A stretch of 46,560 nt of DNA from assembly GCA_030650995.1 (NCBI GenBank), contig JAUSCY010000081.1, positions 1-46,560 of the forward strand, written 5' to 3'. Source of the stretch: Sheuella sp. (lineage in GTDB: Bacteria > Pseudomonadota > Gammaproteobacteria > Burkholderiales > Burkholderiaceae_B). Shown in pieces: positions 40,158 through 46,560 of this stretch. How positions within the stretch are numbered: the first letter of the stretch is position 1; every line of letters starts with the position of its first letter. Position numbers and translations under genes: made by a program. The notes under the pieces were generated by a model. That model was not told the DNA's origin, made no database searches, and worked only from the letters and a program-made list of their open reading frames with translations.

Positions 40158-41516
40158 ATGTCTAAAAACCTGATCGATCCGATTGTGGCGATAGCCACCG
40201 CCCCTGGCAGGGGCGGGATCGGCGTAGTGCGTATTTCTGGCCCCGATCTGGGGCCTTTTATTTTTTCTTTGCTTGGTAAAAAACTAACGCCCCGGCACGC
40301 ACATTATCTGAACTTTCCAGATCATAATCAGCATCCTATTGATCAAGGCCTGGCAATTTTTTTCAATCAGCCACACTCCTACACAGGAGAAGACGTACTT
40401 GAGTTGCAAGGGCACGGTGGGCCAGCGGTTTTACAGCAGCTTTTAAAACGTTGTCTGGAAGTTGGGCACACCTTTGGTTTAAGACTTGCTACGCCTGGTG
40501 AATTCACCCAACGTGCTTTTCTTAATGACAAAATTGATTTGGCGCAGGCTGAGGCCGTTGCAGATCTGATTGACGCAACCTCTGAGGCTGCTGCGCGTGC
40601 GGCCGTCTCATCGCTTTCTGGTGAATTCTCGCGTCGTATTAATACCCTCTCGACCTCGATTGTTCAATTACGGATGCTTATCGAAGCAACTCTGGATTTT
40701 CCTGAAGAAGAAATCGAGTTTCTGGAAAAATATCAGGCGCGTCAAAAGCTGGATGTCATGCTTGATGACATTGACAACATTATTTCTCAATCACGTCAGG
40801 GCATGGTCCTACGTGAAGGTCTACACGTCGTTTTGGCTGGCGAACCAAACGTTGGTAAATCCAGCTTATTAAATGCCTTAGCTGGTCAGGATCTAGCCAT
40901 CGTCACAGACATTGCGGGGACTACGCGCGATAAAGTCTCGCAAGTCATCCACTTGCAAGGCGTGCCCATCACGATTATTGACACCGCAGGCTTGCGCGAG
41001 ACGACTGACACAATTGAGTCGATAGGGATCAGTCGAAGCTGGGCTGAGATTGCCCGCGCAGATGTTGTGTTGCACTTGATGGATGCGACGATACCGAGCA
41101 CGCATTTAGATGAAAAGATCGAAACAACACGATCCCGTCAAAGCATAGTTTTACAGGTCTTTAATAAACAGGACCTTTTATCAGATTTATCGAACATCGC
41201 AGATCAGGCGATTTACATATCAGCTAAGACTGGCAAGGGTCTTGACGTATTACAGACGAGACTTTTAAACATCGCAGGCTGGAACCCAGGTCAGGAATCT
41301 CCCTGGCTTGCCAGACAACGGCACATTGATTCGCTAGAGCAATCGCGCATGCATTTATTACTTGCAAAAGAGCATGCTGCTGAAAATGATCGTGTGCTTG
41401 ATTTGTTTGCCGAAGAGCTCAGACTCGCGCATGATAGCCTCGGTCAAATTACGGGAAAAATGACGCCAGATGATTTACTAGGTGAAATTTTTTCCAATTT
41501 CTGTATTGGTAAATAA
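40158..41516 (+). CDS. mnmE: tRNA modification GTPase MnmE
   Basis: MnmE with MnmG installs the 5-carboxymethylaminomethyl group on wobble uridine of tRNAs. The 452-residue protein starts [20 protein letters not shown] (folate-binding domain) and has a GTPase insert with [17 protein letters not shown] (G1), IAGTTRD (G2), DTAG (G3) and NKQD (G4). It ends with the canonical CIGK at the C-terminus, whose Cys is functionally required. It closes the rpmH-to-mnmE plus-strand block and converges with the ApbE gene. Confidence 0.97.
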
Positions 41517-41534
41517 GTCCTGATCAAGCTAGTC

Positions 41535-42521
41535 TTATTGCGCTTGAATCTGACCTGCAACAATTGAAATCTCTTCAAACCCTGCATCATCACGTAGTAC
41601 AAACAAAACATCCATTGCTCGTTTTTGTGCCAGTGCAACGCCGGCCTCTTCACCCAACACGAGCAATGCCGTTGCCCATGCATCTGCTAGCATGCAGCTC
41701 GAGGCCACTACGGTAACTGCTGCAACACGATTGTGCACCGGAGCACCGCGCGAGGGATGCATTGTATGTGCGTAGCGCTCACCGGCTACATCGACAAATC
41801 GACGATAGTCACCCGAAGTCGCAATTGACGCATCACACAACTCCATTACCCCCATCACCTCTCGTACTCCTGGCAATGGCTTTTCAAGGGCAACAGCCCA
41901 AGGTTCGTGACCTGGCTTGAAGCCTCGCGCACGCATCTCACCATCAATACCCACCAGATAACTGGTGACTCCCAATCGATCAAGGCAACGGGCCAGTTGA
42001 TCCACGCCATAGCCTTTGGCAATACCAGACAGGTCGAGCGTGACGTCGGACATTTTGCGAACCCGCATGCCCGCCTGATCAATCTCCAGTGTTTCTTTTG
42101 TTACATGTATGACTTGTTGTTTATTCTGACCGATTTGATTCGTTGGGATTTGATGCTTTTCTGGACCAAAGCCCCATGTATTGACGAGCGCACCAACACC
42201 GATATCGAACGCCCCATCAGATTGCCGGTTAATCTCTAATGCTGACTGCAACACCGTTATCAGTTCACTGGGTACAGCTAGCCATTTTTGTGGTGCTGCT
42301 GCGTTTAGCTCGCTCAAAGCAGAGTTTGGTTTCCACGTCGACATCTGCTTATCAGCCAGATCTACTGCGGCAAAGAGTTTTTCATTTATTTCATGAATAG
42401 TTGATGCAACGATTCCAGATGGCGCAAAAAAAACAGCGGTGTAACGTGTCCCCATGGTTTCACCGTTAACACTATATCGCTGCACGCTTGCCGTGTCGGT
42501 GCTGTCAATAAACATCTTCAC
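41535..42521 (-). CDS. ApbE-family FAD:protein FMN transferase-like protein
   Basis: A 328-residue ApbE-family protein, expected to transfer FMN from FAD to a Thr/Ser of an extracytosolic flavoprotein. Blocks: NGETMGTRYTAVF near residue 20, STWKPNSALSELNA, GAFDIGVGALVNTWGFGP (98-120 region), TLDLSGIAKGYGVDQLA (161-177), SYLVGIDGEMRARG, ATSGDYRRF (234-242) and DAWATALLVLG with the Mg-binding Asp D280. Two oddities: no signal peptide or lipobox precedes the domain, although ApbE normally acts in the periplasm, and the usual H-x-I-D-P motif reads HTMHPSRG (residues 252-259). Its ATG overlaps the reductase 3' end by 17 bp. A cytosolic target or leaderless export are alternatives. Confidence 0.85.
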   Translation of the reverse strand: MKMFIDSTDTASVQRYSVNGETMGTRYTAVFFAPSGIVASTIHEINEKLFAAVDLADKQMSTWKPNSALSELNAAAPQKWLAVPSELITVLQSALEINRQSDGAFDIGVGALVNTWGFGPEKHQIPTNQIGQNKQQVIHVTKETLEIDQAGMRVRKMSDVTLDLSGIAKGYGVDQLARCLDRLGVTSYLVGIDGEMRARGFKPGHEPWAVALEKPLPGVREVMGVMELCDASIATSGDYRRFVDVAGERYAHTMHPSRGAPVHNRVAAVTVVASSCMLADAWATALLVLGEEAGVALAQKRAMDVLFVLRDDAGFEEISIVAGQIQAQ

Positions 42522-44733
42522 GGTACCGCCCGGCGGCTTTCAACTCTTTTACACTGAGACGTGCAGGCGACAATATGCGATCAAGCTTCTCTGACACACT
42601 GTTTGCCATCTCTCGACCACCGCAGACCAGTACCTGACCACCCTGCTCAATCAAATGTCTTGTTTGTACGGCATCGTCACCTATACGGTCTTGAACATAC
42701 GCTCGGTCCTTCACTCTTGAAAAAGTCACATTCAATTGCGTAAGCCGCTCGTCCTTTATATATCCACGCAATTCAGGCTCATACAAAAAATCCGATTCTG
42801 GGTCACGACCCCCCCAGTACAGATACATGGGACGCCGAGCTTTGTTATTCCGGATAAATCCAACCAAAGGTCCAATACCGGTTCCTGCACCGATCAGGAT
42901 CACTGGAGCCTTGCCGGATACGGGACGAAAGTTTGGATTAGGAGAGATAAAAGCATCTATCCGGTCTCCAGGCTGCAAGCTATGCAAAAACCCTGAACAC
43001 ACGCCATCCGCATGTTTGCGTACACAAATTTCCAGAACGTTATCACGCGACCCGCTCGCCAATGAATAAAAACGCGGCATAGTAGAGTTTGGTGGCAATA
43101 TGCCAACCAGGTCGCCAGAACTAAAGTTCGGCAAGCCATTGCTTCCAAAAAAACGCCGTAGTCGCTTGTCCTCTGGCACTGCTATAAATCGCAGAATACT
43201 GGTAGGTGTATTTATCTCTACTCCATAGTCGATACGCTCTAGCAATTCTAAGGAACATGTAGCAGGACGCCTGGGTACATACTTCAGAGTAATGTCCTGA
43301 CCAATTGCTTGGCTCAAAGACTTGCCCCACCGAGAAAATTCCTGCTCTGACTGTTTGTCTATCGTTTCAAATGCCATCAGGTGCTGCCAGCCTAAAGATA
43401 GCAGTGCAGCATCCACATCTTTGGCAAACTTACAGAACTGTGGAAATTGTCGATCACCGAATCCTAATACCGCGAACGTCGGTTTTGTCGTTTGAACCGT
43501 TTTTTTATTCAGACTAGCCAAGCGCGTCAGAAACTGATTCGCGCAAGATGGCGCTTCACCATCGCCATAAGTTGAGGTTAGAATAAATACATGTTTTGCA
43601 CTGCGGTATTGAGGCAAGAGCGTATTCATCGTTGAAGTATGAACAGTGTGTCCTGCTAGTCTTAACGCATCGTTTAAAACACTAGCAAAGCCCCACGTAC
43701 TGTTATTTTCACTGCCAACAAGCATCACGATATCTGCCGCTTGTGCTTGGCCGTTGTTAGTTATACGAGGCCGGTCTCGACGACGCTGCCACCACATCTG
43801 AACACCTGTAGCGCTTAGGAGTGGCACACCCAAAGCACATACTCCTAACAGCAAACCTAACCACCACAAGCCTTCACCCGTATGTAACAAGTAAACCAAG
43901 TCATATATATCTCGCATGCCTGCATGCGCCCGGTAAGATAACAATTCACCGGTTGCTTGATCAACGTAGCCATCGCCTTGTGTAGTGCGTAATGAGTAGA
44001 AATCACTCAGGTCACCCGATCTTGGATACACCAGCTCTCGTAAATTACTCAGATCAATTGCTTGCAGAGCTGATAAATTAGCAGGGGGTTTAGCTTGTCC
44101 CCCATTTACACTTGCTGGAAAGTCAGGTTCGTCCTGTTTGCCGTCGTAAATAAATCCAAATGTTGCTGCCGACATATATATGCCTGTTAGTGCTGACAAG
44201 ATCAAACCAATTATGACAATACGTCCTGCCTGAGCATGCAGACGCTGGTTTAGGTTGCCGCGAAGTGGGCGTATCAGATTACGCCATCCCCCTAACCGTC
44301 TGATAAGTAATACAGCACCTGTTAAAGTCAGAATAAGCATAAATATTGCTGCAATACCAACGACAGCTCGTCCTGGTGTATCGAGCAACAATGATCGATG
44401 CAATTGCTTTACCCATCTAGAGAAACTCGAGTTAGCATGATTTGCAATACGTTTGCCATTGAGCGGATCAATACTATCAGCACCTGACTGTCCAGCATTG
44501 CTGTAGTAAACAACGACTGTTCCGGATGCCGTGCGCTTGATTTGTTCAGCGCCTGGATAGTTAAGCGCCACTCGTTGGGCTAAATCGGCCACACTGACTT
44601 GTCCTGTCGATGGCACATGTATAGACAGTCTTTCCAACCCAGGATCAATTGACAATATGGCGCCACTTATTGCCAGCACCAATAAAAACAAGCTGGCTAT
44701 TAAGCCGGGTAACGAATGAAGCTGACGTACCAT
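42505..44733 (-). CDS. PepSY-membrane / flavodoxin / NADPH-flavoreductase fusion
   Basis: A 742-residue inner-membrane electron-transfer protein. The N-terminal third is a PepSY_TM module with membrane segments near residues 8-30, 122-145, 170-193 and 286-312; H6, H112, H166 and H284 sit at helix ends where PepSY_TM proteins may bind haem. A flavodoxin domain (about 333-480; TSTYGDGEAPSCANQF, FAVLGFGDRQFPQF) binds FMN. An FNR-like FAD/NADPH part follows with PRFYSLAS (553-560), GAGTGIGPLVGF (615-626) and VLVCGGREMA (701-710); the C-terminal VY matches the aromatic end of cytochrome P450/sulfite reductase flavoproteins. It would pass NADPH electrons through FAD and FMN to the periplasmic side. 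The alternative role is ferric-siderophore reduction. Confidence 0.85.
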   Translation of the reverse strand: MVRQLHSLPGLIASLFLLVLAISGAILSIDPGLERLSIHVPSTGQVSVADLAQRVALNYPGAEQIKRTASGTVVVYYSNAGQSGADSIDPLNGKRIANHANSSFSRWVKQLHRSLLLDTPGRAVVGIAAIFMLILTLTGAVLLIRRLGGWRNLIRPLRGNLNQRLHAQAGRIVIIGLILSALTGIYMSAATFGFIYDGKQDEPDFPASVNGGQAKPPANLSALQAIDLSNLRELVYPRSGDLSDFYSLRTTQGDGYVDQATGELLSYRAHAGMRDIYDLVYLLHTGEGLWWLGLLLGVCALGVPLLSATGVQMWWQRRRDRPRITNNGQAQAADIVMLVGSENNSTWGFASVLNDALRLAGHTVHTSTMNTLLPQYRSAKHVFILTSTYGDGEAPSCANQFLTRLASLNKKTVQTTKPTFAVLGFGDRQFPQFCKFAKDVDAALLSLGWQHLMAFETIDKQSEQEFSRWGKSLSQAIGQDITLKYVPRRPATCSLELLERIDYGVEINTPTSILRFIAVPEDKRLRRFFGSNGLPNFSSGDLVGILPPNSTMPRFYSLASGSRDNVLEICVRKHADGVCSGFLHSLQPGDRIDAFISPNPNFRPVSGKAPVILIGAGTGIGPLVGFIRNNKARRPMYLYWGGRDPESDFLYEPELRGYIKDERLTQLNVTFSRVKDRAYVQDRIGDDAVQTRHLIEQGGQVLVCGGREMANSVSEKLDRILSPARLSVKELKAAGRYREDVY

Positions 44734-44808
44734 GGTACTAAATACCTCTGGTTGCTGTGTCCGAACTTTCTGATTGTGATGCTTTTTCTGATGCTTTAAT
44801 CATTGCGA

Positions 44809-45279
44809 CTACATGTCATATTTAAAGCTTTTGACATAACCACGACCAGTAACCGATTTCCCTGAGTCTTTGGTTGTTAATGGTATGCGAACATCAGCGG
44901 CATTTTCACGACCATCCTCCACTGCTGTATCAATACGAATCTCATACCCTGCATCGATTAAGGTATCTGCTAATTCAACTTTTACTGTTAACGATTTTCC
45001 GCTTCCTACGCTTGCTCCGCTTACTCCATCGAACTCTTTAGCATTCAAACCACTCCCTCGTGCCCAGTCACGCAATCCTTTGTAATATTTTGATTTTTTT
45101 CCTGCAACCCATAGTGTTTTTTGATATTTACCGTTTGCATCTGTGACATATATTGCTAAATATGCACCATTGCCACCATAGTTTTGCAACTGGGTTGTTA
45201 GCGTTAACGTACGTGCTTCTACCATTCCAGGCAATACAACAGCACCAACAAGTAAAAAAGAGCTAATGACTTTTTTCAT
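44809..45279 (-). CDS. secreted DUF2271 protein with candidate flavinylation motif
   Basis: A 156-residue protein with a signal peptide (hydrophobic core at residues 5-19, probable cleavage at VEA-R) and a DUF2271 beta-rich body (LTLTTQLQNYGGNGAYLAIY, TLWVAGKKSKYYKGLRDW). D84-G-V-S-G-A-S90 fits the Dxx[ST]GA[ST] consensus that ApbE enzymes flavinylate, with Ser rather than the more frequent Thr as acceptor. It lies between the small PepSY gene and the reductase fusion. The sensible role is a periplasmic one- or two-electron carrier loaded with FMN. Covalent flavin on S90 is inference; the motif and the ApbE gene in the same operon support it. Confidence 0.8.
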   Translation of the reverse strand: MKKVISSFLLVGAVVLPGMVEARTLTLTTQLQNYGGNGAYLAIYVTDANGKYQKTLWVAGKKSKYYKGLRDWARGSGLNAKEFDGVSGASVGSGKSLTVKVELADTLIDAGYEIRIDTAVEDGRENAADVRIPLTTKDSGKSVTGRGYVKSFKYDM

Positions 45280-45335
45280 AATAATTTTCCGTTTATAAAG
45301 TCAGTGATATGCATTATGTTTGGAGACATATCTAC

Positions 45336-45680
45336 TTATTTGGCTTGTTGGCCTGGTAAAAAATAACCAGTCGATTCACCATTTTTTCCAAAACGGATTT
45401 CAAATGCTTGAATCTTTAAAGTCACGGGTGCATATATCGCTTTAAACCTGTTTCCTTTACTATCAGACCCCCTGACTTCGTAGCAACCATCATCTATTTT
45501 GATGCGTTTAATGGTCCAACCATGCTGCTCTACTTGCTGTCGTAGCACATCACGCGATTGCCAATCGGATACTGCTCCTTCACAACTTTCATCAGCTGTT
45601 GCAACACCGCTAATTAGAATAGCGGCCACAAAGCCAACCACCGATGCATATTGCCGTATACGTATTTGCATGGCTTTCAT
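45336..45680 (-). CDS. small secreted PepSY-domain protein
   Basis: A 114-residue periplasmic protein with a signal peptide (ASVVGFVAAILISGVATA, cleavage probably at ATA-D). The mature part has the PepSY pattern: DWQSRDVLRQQVEQHGWTIK, then KRIKIDDGCYEVRGSDSKGN and a strand QAFEIRF. C33 and C67-type cysteines (ESCEGA, DDGCYEV) could make a disulfide. PepSY modules are often regulatory or redox-partner domains. It is the first gene of the PepSY-DUF2271-reductase-ApbE operon, 56 bp ahead of the DUF2271 gene. Its exact role is not known. Confidence 0.75.
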   Translation of the reverse strand: MKAMQIRIRQYASVVGFVAAILISGVATADESCEGAVSDWQSRDVLRQQVEQHGWTIKRIKIDDGCYEVRGSDSKGNRFKAIYAPVTLKIQAFEIRFGKNGESTGYFLPGQQAK

Positions 45681-45756
45681 CCTGTTTTTATAAACATATA
45701 TTTATGTAGGAATTGATTTTTTCATCTACATGCTTAGTACTTTTAAACCACGTCGC

Positions 45757-45774
45757 GCTGCTGAATTCAGCAGC
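45757..45774. promoter_or_regulatory. 18-bp perfect palindrome upstream of the PepSY/DUF2271 operon
   Basis: GCTGCTGAATTCAGCAGC is a perfect palindrome, 77 bp before the first operon ATG at 45680 (minus strand). Its place in the presumed promoter region suggests an operator for a dimeric regulator. Resemblance to a Fur box or another known operator is not seen. Confidence 0.5.
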
Positions 45775-45835
45775 TGTATTTATTCTGAAGAATGAATGAT
45801 TTAATTGTTCTACACCCTTCAATTATACGAGTCCC

Positions 45836-45861
45836 TCTTCCTACTGTAACCAGTAGGAAGA
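45836..45861. other. 11-bp perfect stem-loop between the SDR gene and the PepSY operon
   Basis: TCTTCCTACTG (45836-45846) and CAGTAGGAAGA (45851-45861) with a 4-base loop. No T-run follows on either strand immediately, so it is not a standard intrinsic terminator, though it lies 58 bp beyond the SDR stop and could end that transcript. The rest of the 238-bp AT-rich spacer (45681-45918) holds no gene. Confidence 0.5.
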
Positions 45862-45918
45862 AAATCATCATTGATTAAACGCAAGTAAATCTTTAAGTTT
45901 TTTTATCGTTTTTTTTAA

Positions 45919-46560
45919 TTACTTAATAGTGTGTCCACCATCGATAGGTAAAACAGCACCCGTTATATCTTGACCCGCATCACTACATAAAAACACTACA
46001 AATCCGGCAACACTCTTTGCTGAAACAAACCGTCCTGTTGGGTGTCTTGTAGAGATATAGTTTTTCTGTGCTTGTTCTTCTGAAATACCCTCTGCCTGAG
46101 CAATACCAGCTATTTTGTCAAGGATTGGTTTTGTTGGCACTGTTCCAGGACAAAGTGCATTACAGGTAATACCTGACTTCGCACAATCCATCGCAACACT
46201 TCGAGTCAAACCAATTAAAGCTGTCTTTGTCGTGATGTATGAAATCCGATTCTCTGAAGCGGTCAGACCAAATACCGATGACATATTGATAATACGTCCC
46301 CAGCCGGCTCTACGCATTGCTGGGACACTTAGCCTGATGGTATGAAAGGCTGCTGACAAATTAACTGCTATAGCGTCATCCCAGCTTTGTGTAGGCAATT
46401 CATCAACTAAACCAACACTTCTTATTACTGCATTATTCACAACAATATCAATCTGACCAAAACGCTGGCAAGCACCAGTCACCATTGACTCTATCTGGTC
46501 AACATGTTTAAGATTCGCGTGACTAATCAGCACACCTACTTTGTACTTCTCTTCTAGTTG
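45919..46560 (-). CDS. short-chain dehydrogenase, 3-hydroxybutyrate dehydrogenase-like (cut by window edge)
   Basis: The frame runs off the right edge without a credible start inside the window; the visible 214 residues begin QLEEKYKVGVLISHANLK. Short-chain dehydrogenase motifs: NNAVIRS (NNAG counterpart), NMSSVFG with the catalytic Ser, YITTK with the catalytic Tyr/Lys, CNALCPG, and the C-terminal FLCSDAGQDITGAVLPIDGG. The GISEEQAQ and FVSAKSVAGFVVFLCSDA blocks resemble 3-hydroxybutyrate dehydrogenases, which interconvert acetoacetate and 3-hydroxybutyrate with NAD. The N-terminal GxxxGxG cofactor loop is outside the window. Other SDR substrates remain possible. Confidence 0.75.
   Translation of the reverse strand, partial: QLEEKYKVGVLISHANLKHVDQIESMVTGACQRFGQIDIVVNNAVIRSVGLVDELPTQSWDDAIAVNLSAAFHTIRLSVPAMRRAGWGRIINMSSVFGLTASENRISYITTKTALIGLTRSVAMDCAKSGITCNALCPGTVPTKPILDKIAGIAQAEGISEEQAQKNYISTRHPTGRFVSAKSVAGFVVFLCSDAGQDITGAVLPIDGGHTIK

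Follow-up and report, generated by a model that had tools for sequence, protein, structure and literature searches.

The locus described here raises a clean and testable question, namely how an enzyme without an export signal modifies a secreted protein, and alongside it a second one, which acceptor takes up the electrons that the modified protein would carry. It is a four-gene cassette in contig JAUSCY010000081.1 of a Sheuella sp. genome (GCA_030650995.1), of which the whole stretch of 46,560 nucleotides, referred to here as the window, was analysed. Read from 45680 to 41535 on the minus strand, the cassette encodes a PepSY_2 protein, a DUF2271 protein, a reductase in which PepSY_TM, flavodoxin and FNR parts are fused, and ApbE. 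We consider it fairly probable that these genes encode a transmembrane reductase chain that passes electrons from NADPH to a periplasmic metal, most likely Fe(III) or a ferric complex, via flavin mononucleotide (FMN) on the DUF2271 protein. The cassette comprises:

45336..45680, minus strand: small secreted PepSY_2 (PF13670) protein of 114 residues (Pfam 4.7e-23; leader read by eye)
44809..45279, minus strand: secreted DUF2271 (PF10029) protein of 156 residues, the predicted ApbE substrate (Pfam 1.2e-37)
45010..45012, minus strand: codon of Ser90, the final residue of DGVSGAS and predicted FMN attachment residue (sequence and motif conservation)
42505..44733, minus strand: 742-residue protein, a PepSY_TM four-helix module (His6, His112, His166 and His284) fused to flavodoxin and CysJ/P450-reductase-type FAD/NADPH domains (Pfam, PDB matches, alignment and model)
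41535..42521, minus strand: ApbE, a flavin adenine dinucleotide (FAD):protein FMN transferase without a signal peptide (Pfam 3e-81)

Every protein of the cassette has at least one Pfam match above the curated cut-offs; in the reductase these are PepSY_TM (PF03929; 1.1e-43), Flavodoxin_1 (2.9e-12) and NAD_binding_1 (4.4e-12), and the FAD_binding_6 match there is, at 0.02, below the Pfam cut-off. Together with the open reading frame positions, the matches place four genes as a preliminary description, made from the letters of the window, had placed them, in order and on the same strand. Its identification of an ApbE-like FMN transferase and of a reductase fused to a four-helix PepSY module with conserved His agrees with the domains, alignment and model, and the two secreted proteins that it had proposed, a small PepSY protein and a DUF2271 protein with a DxxSGAS motif, have Sec-type leaders by eye, the motif being DGVSGAS at residues 84–90. 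Domains, motif, conserved His and synteny thus all back the flavinylation-linked transmembrane electron path that it had suggested. The apbE gene overlaps the reductase gene by 17 bases, with its GTG start, or an ATG two codons on, lying within the reductase 3' end. Scans of the window with Rfam, at the gathering threshold, and for tRNAs gave no matches.

The membrane half of the reductase has the four helices and four His of the FoxB type, as seen in both alignment and model. His6, His112, His166 and His284 are invariant across 27 aligned reductases (the window protein and 26 of the 54 full-length relatives extracted), and an AlphaFold2 model (mean pLDDT 81, pTM 0.57) places four long membrane-type helices at residues 8–36, 118–147, 161–191 and 290–320. 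FoxB (7abw) is the only PDB sequence match of this half, and a weak one (E 0.0087 as a whole; 0.5 and 16 for its two pieces). FoxB of Pseudomonas aeruginosa, HiuB and CrpH likewise have a PepSY_TM core with at least four helices and paired His for haem, and are described as acting without a DUF2271 flavoprotein (PMC13001220, PMC13038864); the window protein differs from them in its extra fused cytosolic flavodoxin/FNR half, and the window copy lacks a neighbouring TonB receptor. The cytosolic half resembles CysJ and P450 reductase both by sequence and by fold, sharing with CysJ and NADPH-P450 reductase the flavodoxin and FAD/NADPH domains and the C-terminal ...REDVY, but unlike CysJ it is fused to a membrane cytochrome-like module and its score is far under the NCBIfam CysJ equivalog cut-off (170 bits against 668). 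Because this half is of the CysJ/P450-reductase type, NADPH is the likely electron donor.

The DUF2271 protein combines a PF10029 domain with [ST]GA[ST], the attributes of an ApbE substrate, and the motif is present in the DUF2271 protein of all 63 loci of a genome-contig scan described below. Within the window cassette it occurs in this protein only, and the last S/T of such motifs, here Ser90, presumably carries FMN. The reductase was considered as an ApbE target and rejected: its [ST]GA[ST] is found in 19 of 54 relatives, 14 of the 19 having it at one place in the fourth helix and 11 of those 14 belonging to one near-identical gammaproteobacterial cassette, and it is absent from the window protein. 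The leader of the DUF2271 protein is of the Sec type, with no conserved twin-arginine motif by eye, and the structural model of the protein is confident (mean pLDDT 87.7), with no PDB fold match at E <= 0.001. The PepSY_2 protein has a Cys pair, C33 and C66, that is kept in all 77 aligned sequences (84 were extracted, of which seven outside the length limits were omitted).

In the chain that we propose, electrons would pass from NADPH to FAD and on to the FMN of the flavodoxin domain, then across two haems held by the four conserved His of the PepSY_TM helices, and from there to FMN on Ser90 of the periplasmic DUF2271 protein, which would deliver them to the metal acceptor. ApbE would put the FMN on DUF2271, and PepSY_2 may be an accessory, perhaps docking or restraining the chain.

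Much of this has precedent. DUF2271 is a proven ApbE substrate in which mutation has identified the Thr that is flavinylated, and PepSY-like/DUF2271 clusters are connected with the reduction and uptake of iron and with VIT1 (Meheust et al. 2021, PMC8238504). A Caulobacter operon of DUF2271 and DUF4198 is reported to be up in iron-limited mutants and to support fitness under EDTA (PMC11870441), and Alteromonas DUF2271/DUF4198 genes are reported to be up under iron limitation (PMC7190382). The preliminary description was thus right that this kind of system has been described, but in calling the terminal acceptor of the DUF2271 branch not known it fell behind a field in which DUF2271 flavinylation and links to iron are already published (PMC8238504, PMC11870441).

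PepSY-like flavinylation systems are defined by PF03929 or PF16357 near ApbE, FMN-binding, DUF2271 or DUF3570, one or more of which carry a signal peptide (PMC8238504), and the cassette has this combination (PF03929 at 1.1e-43, PF02424 and PF10029, with the DUF2271 leader by eye). The published systems likewise have PepSY_TM, DUF2271 with [ST]GA[ST], ApbE and often an NAD-binding domain; DUF4198 is present in about half of their clusters (1500/3220) and absent from the window cassette (PMC8238504). Neither DUF4198 nor a TonB receptor, the marks of the iron-uptake branch, is among the genes identified from 38 to 46.56 kb, and three distant DUF2271 loci have PF10670 alongside. Further differences from the published systems are PepSY_2, the single FoxB-like/P450-reductase-like fusion, the leaderless ApbE and, in many relatives, a divergent two-component system. 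The system is mostly of a known kind, its variant traits being the leaderless ApbE, the regulator and upstream box of its relatives, mobility, and the metal-transporter neighbours of some relatives.

Relatives were collected by searching one genome per species (84,980 species) with the DUF2271 protein, a scan that detects close relatives only and gave 63 loci, in which ApbE, motif and neighbours were counted by tblastn. The gene order PepSY_2, DUF2271, reductase recurs among them, and ApbE lies directly behind the reductase in 28, its place being taken by a VIT1 gene in some gammaproteobacteria. Orthologous operons without ApbE or the motif had been named in advance as telling against the flavinylation reading; the outcome was mixed: the motif was in all 63 loci, ApbE was directly adjacent in only these 28 of 63 loci, and ApbE was present somewhere in all 50 genomes searched (of the 63).

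The cassette branch is mobile. Eleven gammaproteobacterial loci (L063–L073), from records of Rheinheimera, Citrobacter, Arsukibacterium, Vibrio, Marinobacter, Alteromonas and Halomonas, have neighbouring proteins 94–100% identical to those of one of them, L068. The 9.7-kb block of L068 is matched in 12 plasmid records, in 10 of them over at least 80% of its length at ~98.7% identity, and 10 of the 12 are typed as conjugative; by protein search, a DUF2271 relative is found on 97 plasmids. On three plasmids, from Citrobacter (L134:8765-24534), Marinobacter (L145:4533-18535) and Janthinobacterium (L135:7406-19886), the cassette lies near PhnD-PhnE phosphite/phosphonate-uptake genes, with phosphonate dehydrogenase annotated on two of the three and Tn7-like genes nearby in Citrobacter, and these may share a mobile island carrying the cassette together with a phosphite/phosphonate trait. 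A cassette is also present in a metagenome bin (L039) whose label, Bordetella parapertussis, looks doubtful, and in Cupriavidus metallidurans CH34 (L138; NC_007974.2 2108736-2125200), where apbE is, by position, Rmet_5388. This gene was reportedly struck by a Tn3-related insertion in MSR33, a strain with raised metal resistance (PMC6266692), the only paper found in a literature search on the locus tags Rmet_5387 to Rmet_5392.

The window copy itself is an insertion, lying between mnmE and a short-chain dehydrogenase/reductase (SDR) gene, with the following features around it:

41517..45918: inserted segment, approximate extent (absent here in the two closest relatives; low G+C)
45837..45860: perfect inverted repeat CTTCCTACTG-TAAC-CAGTAGGAAG, 5' of the cassette near TATAAT, a possible operator
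45757..45774: second perfect palindrome, GCTGCTGAATTCAGCAGC, 5' of the cassette
40158..41516, plus strand: mnmE, left flank of the insertion, outside the system
45919..46560, minus strand: SDR-family gene, right flank of the insertion, cut by the contig end, outside the system

All 32 genomes of the genus have mnmE. Judged by MnmE, the closest relatives are L148 and L149 (86% identical); there the same SDR gene stands tail to tail with mnmE at a distance of 8 and 41 bases, with no cassette, and the cassette is beside mnmE in none of the loci of nine other relatives. Across the family, 33 of 268 genomes have a DUF2271 match, which is weak in six; within the genus the matches are confined to this genome and one other (G267, 50% identity). 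The G+C content of the inserted 4.4 kb is 45.5%. That of the remaining window on its left side is 52.1%, and none of the 4.4-kb blocks in those 41.5 kb (48.7–55.3%) comes as low; composition alone proves little, because the third-position G+C of the cassette genes (0.28–0.44) overlaps that of their neighbours (mnmE 0.44, SDR 0.30). No target-site duplication was recognised at the insertion. With dnaA and dnaN ~4 kb beyond the left end, the cassette lies near the presumed replication origin.

Among relatives, the cassette is often adjoined by a divergent response regulator gene (44 of 83 loci with enough upstream sequence), usually with a histidine kinase. A TCAG-N7-TCA[GC] box within 260 bases upstream of PepSY_2 goes with it, being present in 40 of the 44 regulator loci, eleven of which are near copies of each other, against three of the 39 others, and in 0.55% of base-shuffled sequences. 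In those three the regulator is cut by the locus end (L007) or differently oriented (L060, L088), and 18 of the 39 loci are short, so that a more distant regulator would escape notice there. The response regulator of L035 is nearest BasR/PmrA among solved structures, and the L068 kinase is nearest the QseC/PmrB models, far below their cut-offs. RExxE is a sensor motif of the Fe(II)-sensing kind; it is not claimed here, Arg64-Glu65 being present in 33 of 35 kinases and the second Glu not conserved. Beside the two-component genes of the gammaproteobacterial cassette lie genes for a DUF6448 protein and an AraC-type regulator (L068:1088-3034, L145:9089-11025). In many relatives the set is probably switched on by a PmrA/QseB-like two-component system, and a description of this two-component-linked, plasmid-borne form was not found in the literature covered, from which subscription journals are mostly absent.

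The box is missing from the window, which counts among the 39 and has just a variant with one mismatch, TCAGAATAAATACAG; its palindromes at 45837–45860 and 45757–45774 do not match the box of the relatives. The best two-component kinase match in the genome, which is 91% complete, is 29% identical, and the system is taken as absent. The cassette has arrived beside mnmE without the regulator and is presumably driven by its own promoter.

The neighbours of the relatives bear on the acceptor. Of the 63 loci, 31 have a ferric-reductase-type gene and 22 a relative of VIT, P1B ATPase, CDF or CzcA. Among the 15 annotated plasmid neighbourhoods 12 have a transition-metal transporter, some of these 12 being close kin (L134/L145, L136/L139 and L142/L174/L175); the exceptions are L137 with none, L144 with a calcium-type ATPase only and L172 with an unspecified RND permease only. 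Distant 14.4-kb stretches, one each from five of these plasmids, had no transition-metal transporter. Five plasmid ATPases (L136, L140, L141, L142 and L175) have the TPC motif, which we take to mark P1B-5 ATPases, and two of the three scanned with Pfam have a C-terminal hemerythrin domain; the L143 ATPase, truncated where the locus ends, shows SPC and HEGGT. A hemerythrin domain occurs in some P1B-5 ATPases, of which that of S. meliloti is reportedly involved in Ni and Fe transport (PMC9388753). On four alphaproteobacterial plasmids (L141:5117-5782, L143:6217-6732, L175:5769-6443, L137:8322-8990) a cytochrome b or b561-type gene stands in the place of the ferric-reductase gene, as if the two were mutually replaceable.

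Several observations weigh against an iron-directed chain. Eleven of the 22 metal-gene loci are the near-identical gammaproteobacterial cassette, and among the closest relatives of the window (L032–L050) VIT, P1B, CDF or CzcA matches occur in only three of 19 (L041, L048 and L050). Neither an acceptor or metal gene nor a TonB receptor lies beside the window's own copy, which agrees with the earlier remark that no acceptor gene is obvious here. The transporters near plasmid copies are not all for iron, and the plasmid counts come from 16 of the 97 records, chosen for spread of genera, with flanks of 7–15 kb and CH34 unannotated. The FoxB match is weak, the DUF2271 model lacks a PDB fold at the threshold given above, and the Caulobacter DUF2271/DUF4198 genes are reported to change in a zur mutant too (PMC4176598).

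An alternative that we regard as unlikely, though the strongest of those considered, is metal stress in place of iron uptake. Here the chain would keep exported or bound metal reduced, or detoxify Ni, Co, Zn or Cu, together with efflux ATPases and under a metal-responsive kinase. P1B ATPases, CDF and CzcA do adjoin plasmid copies, the kinase resembles models of PmrB, QseC and heavy-metal sensors, with scores well short of every cut-off, and DUF4198, the marker of the branch tied to iron uptake in the published survey, is absent (PMC8238504). Yet iron is indicated too, by the VIT1 and ferric-reductase genes, and neither regulator nor exporter lies beside the window copy. The likeliest role of the chain is to reduce Fe(III) in the periplasm, and perhaps other metals too.

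The remaining question is where the flavin is attached. The preliminary description had assumed that all parts meet in the periplasm, an assumption that is doubtful for ApbE: the protein lacks a hydrophobic leader, judged by hydropathy, in all 37 distinct cassettes where its gene comes immediately after that of the reductase (28 genome-contig loci, eight plasmids and the window, after eight duplicates were dropped from 45). The best 10-residue mean hydropathy before the ApbE domain is at most 1.56 across the 37, and three cassettes alone exceed 1.1: L033 (1.43) and, if a start far upstream is taken, L044 and L046. An in-frame apbE start lies within the reductase 3' end, 17 or 20 bases before the end of the stop codon, in all 37, and further downstream starts, giving a shorter N-terminus, are available in 22. 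The cassette ApbE accordingly has neither the signal peptide nor the lipobox of extracytosolic-type ApbEs, and it aligns to 6nxi over residues 15–318, a stretch that takes in the RYAHTMHPSRG and CMLADAWAT regions, whose residues we take to act in the active site.

A comparison set of 28 other ApbEs divides by the presence of DUF2271. Leaders are present in all 22 without a DUF2271 match in the flank (~1.5 kb), with hydropathy of 2.18 to 3.67 and in most a lipobox, and in none of six from other kinds of DUF2271 loci (L028–L031, L125 and L128). By Pfam, L177 (a longer copy of L030), L181 and L182 are DUF2271 loci of the DUF4198 type, in which the leader is absent in L177 and L182 and present in L181. 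Here, then, DUF2271 generally comes with a leaderless ApbE, though not without exception (L181 at least), and leader loss as a trait peculiar to the branch of the window is ruled out, because other DUF2271-linked ApbEs mostly lack the leader too. The A. ursilacus ApbE of the published test, described as signal-peptide-truncated, is another exception (PMC8238504).

Because the cassette ApbE has no signal peptide, the place of flavin attachment is put in question. The simplest reading of a leaderless ApbE beside a secreted DUF2271 protein is that the precursor is flavinylated inside, and we give a little under an even chance to ApbE acting there with the cell's own FAD, before or during Sec export, with the consequence, at the same tentative level, that a covalently flavinylated chain would pass the Sec channel. 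A study by Bonardi et al. (2011) reportedly suggests, by its title, that a precursor can pass through Sec with bulky groups on it. In the literature covered, no paper was found on the export of flavinylated DUF2271.

That the leaderless ApbE modifies a cytosolic protein, with DUF2271 flavinylated elsewhere or not at all, seems improbable. The only bacterial cytosolic ApbE named in the review consulted, that of Klebsiella pneumoniae, likewise lacks a signal peptide and acts on a soluble fumarate reductase, whereas the predicted target of the window ApbE is a secreted protein (PMC12052999). Against a cytosolic target, DUF2271 alone carries [ST]GA[ST] in the window cassette, the ApbE linked to DUF2271 is leaderless in this branch and, for the most part, elsewhere, and the genome has a single ApbE, that of the cassette, with no FMN_bind protein found. 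The cassette ApbE is also the sole ApbE found in six more genomes, of unstated completeness (L033, L039, L060, L088, L090 and L091), five of which were, like the window's own, searched for FMN_bind without a match (0/6).

Less probable still is that the electrons go to a periplasmic repair enzyme, a respiratory copper site or a cytochrome, as in MsrPQ and CrpH, and not to free metal: haem-copper oxidases can be supported by PepSY_TM proteins (CrpH, PMC13038864), half of the loci have a ferric-reductase partner with PF01794, a domain used for MsrQ-like proteins, and the L141 plasmid copy adjoins an annotated polyhaem cytochrome c with its own regulator pair, but the annotation of the 15 plasmid neighbourhoods names no gene for MsrP, Sco or an oxidase, the unnamed open reading frames of the 63 contig loci having been scanned in part.

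Since iron and metal transporters are its frequent companions, the plasmid-borne, regulator-linked form offers a handle on the acceptor of the electron chain proposed here. If flavinylation does precede Sec export, no FAD export would be needed, which would help the cassette to work wherever it is moved, and the biology of ApbE in these bacteria would be independent of periplasmic FAD. Surveys limited to ApbEs with signal peptides would overlook such enzymes; in the first count of the 2021 survey, genes lacking a signal peptide were discarded (PMC8238504). Flavinylation inside the cell, ahead of export, may then be the rule for DUF2271 at large.

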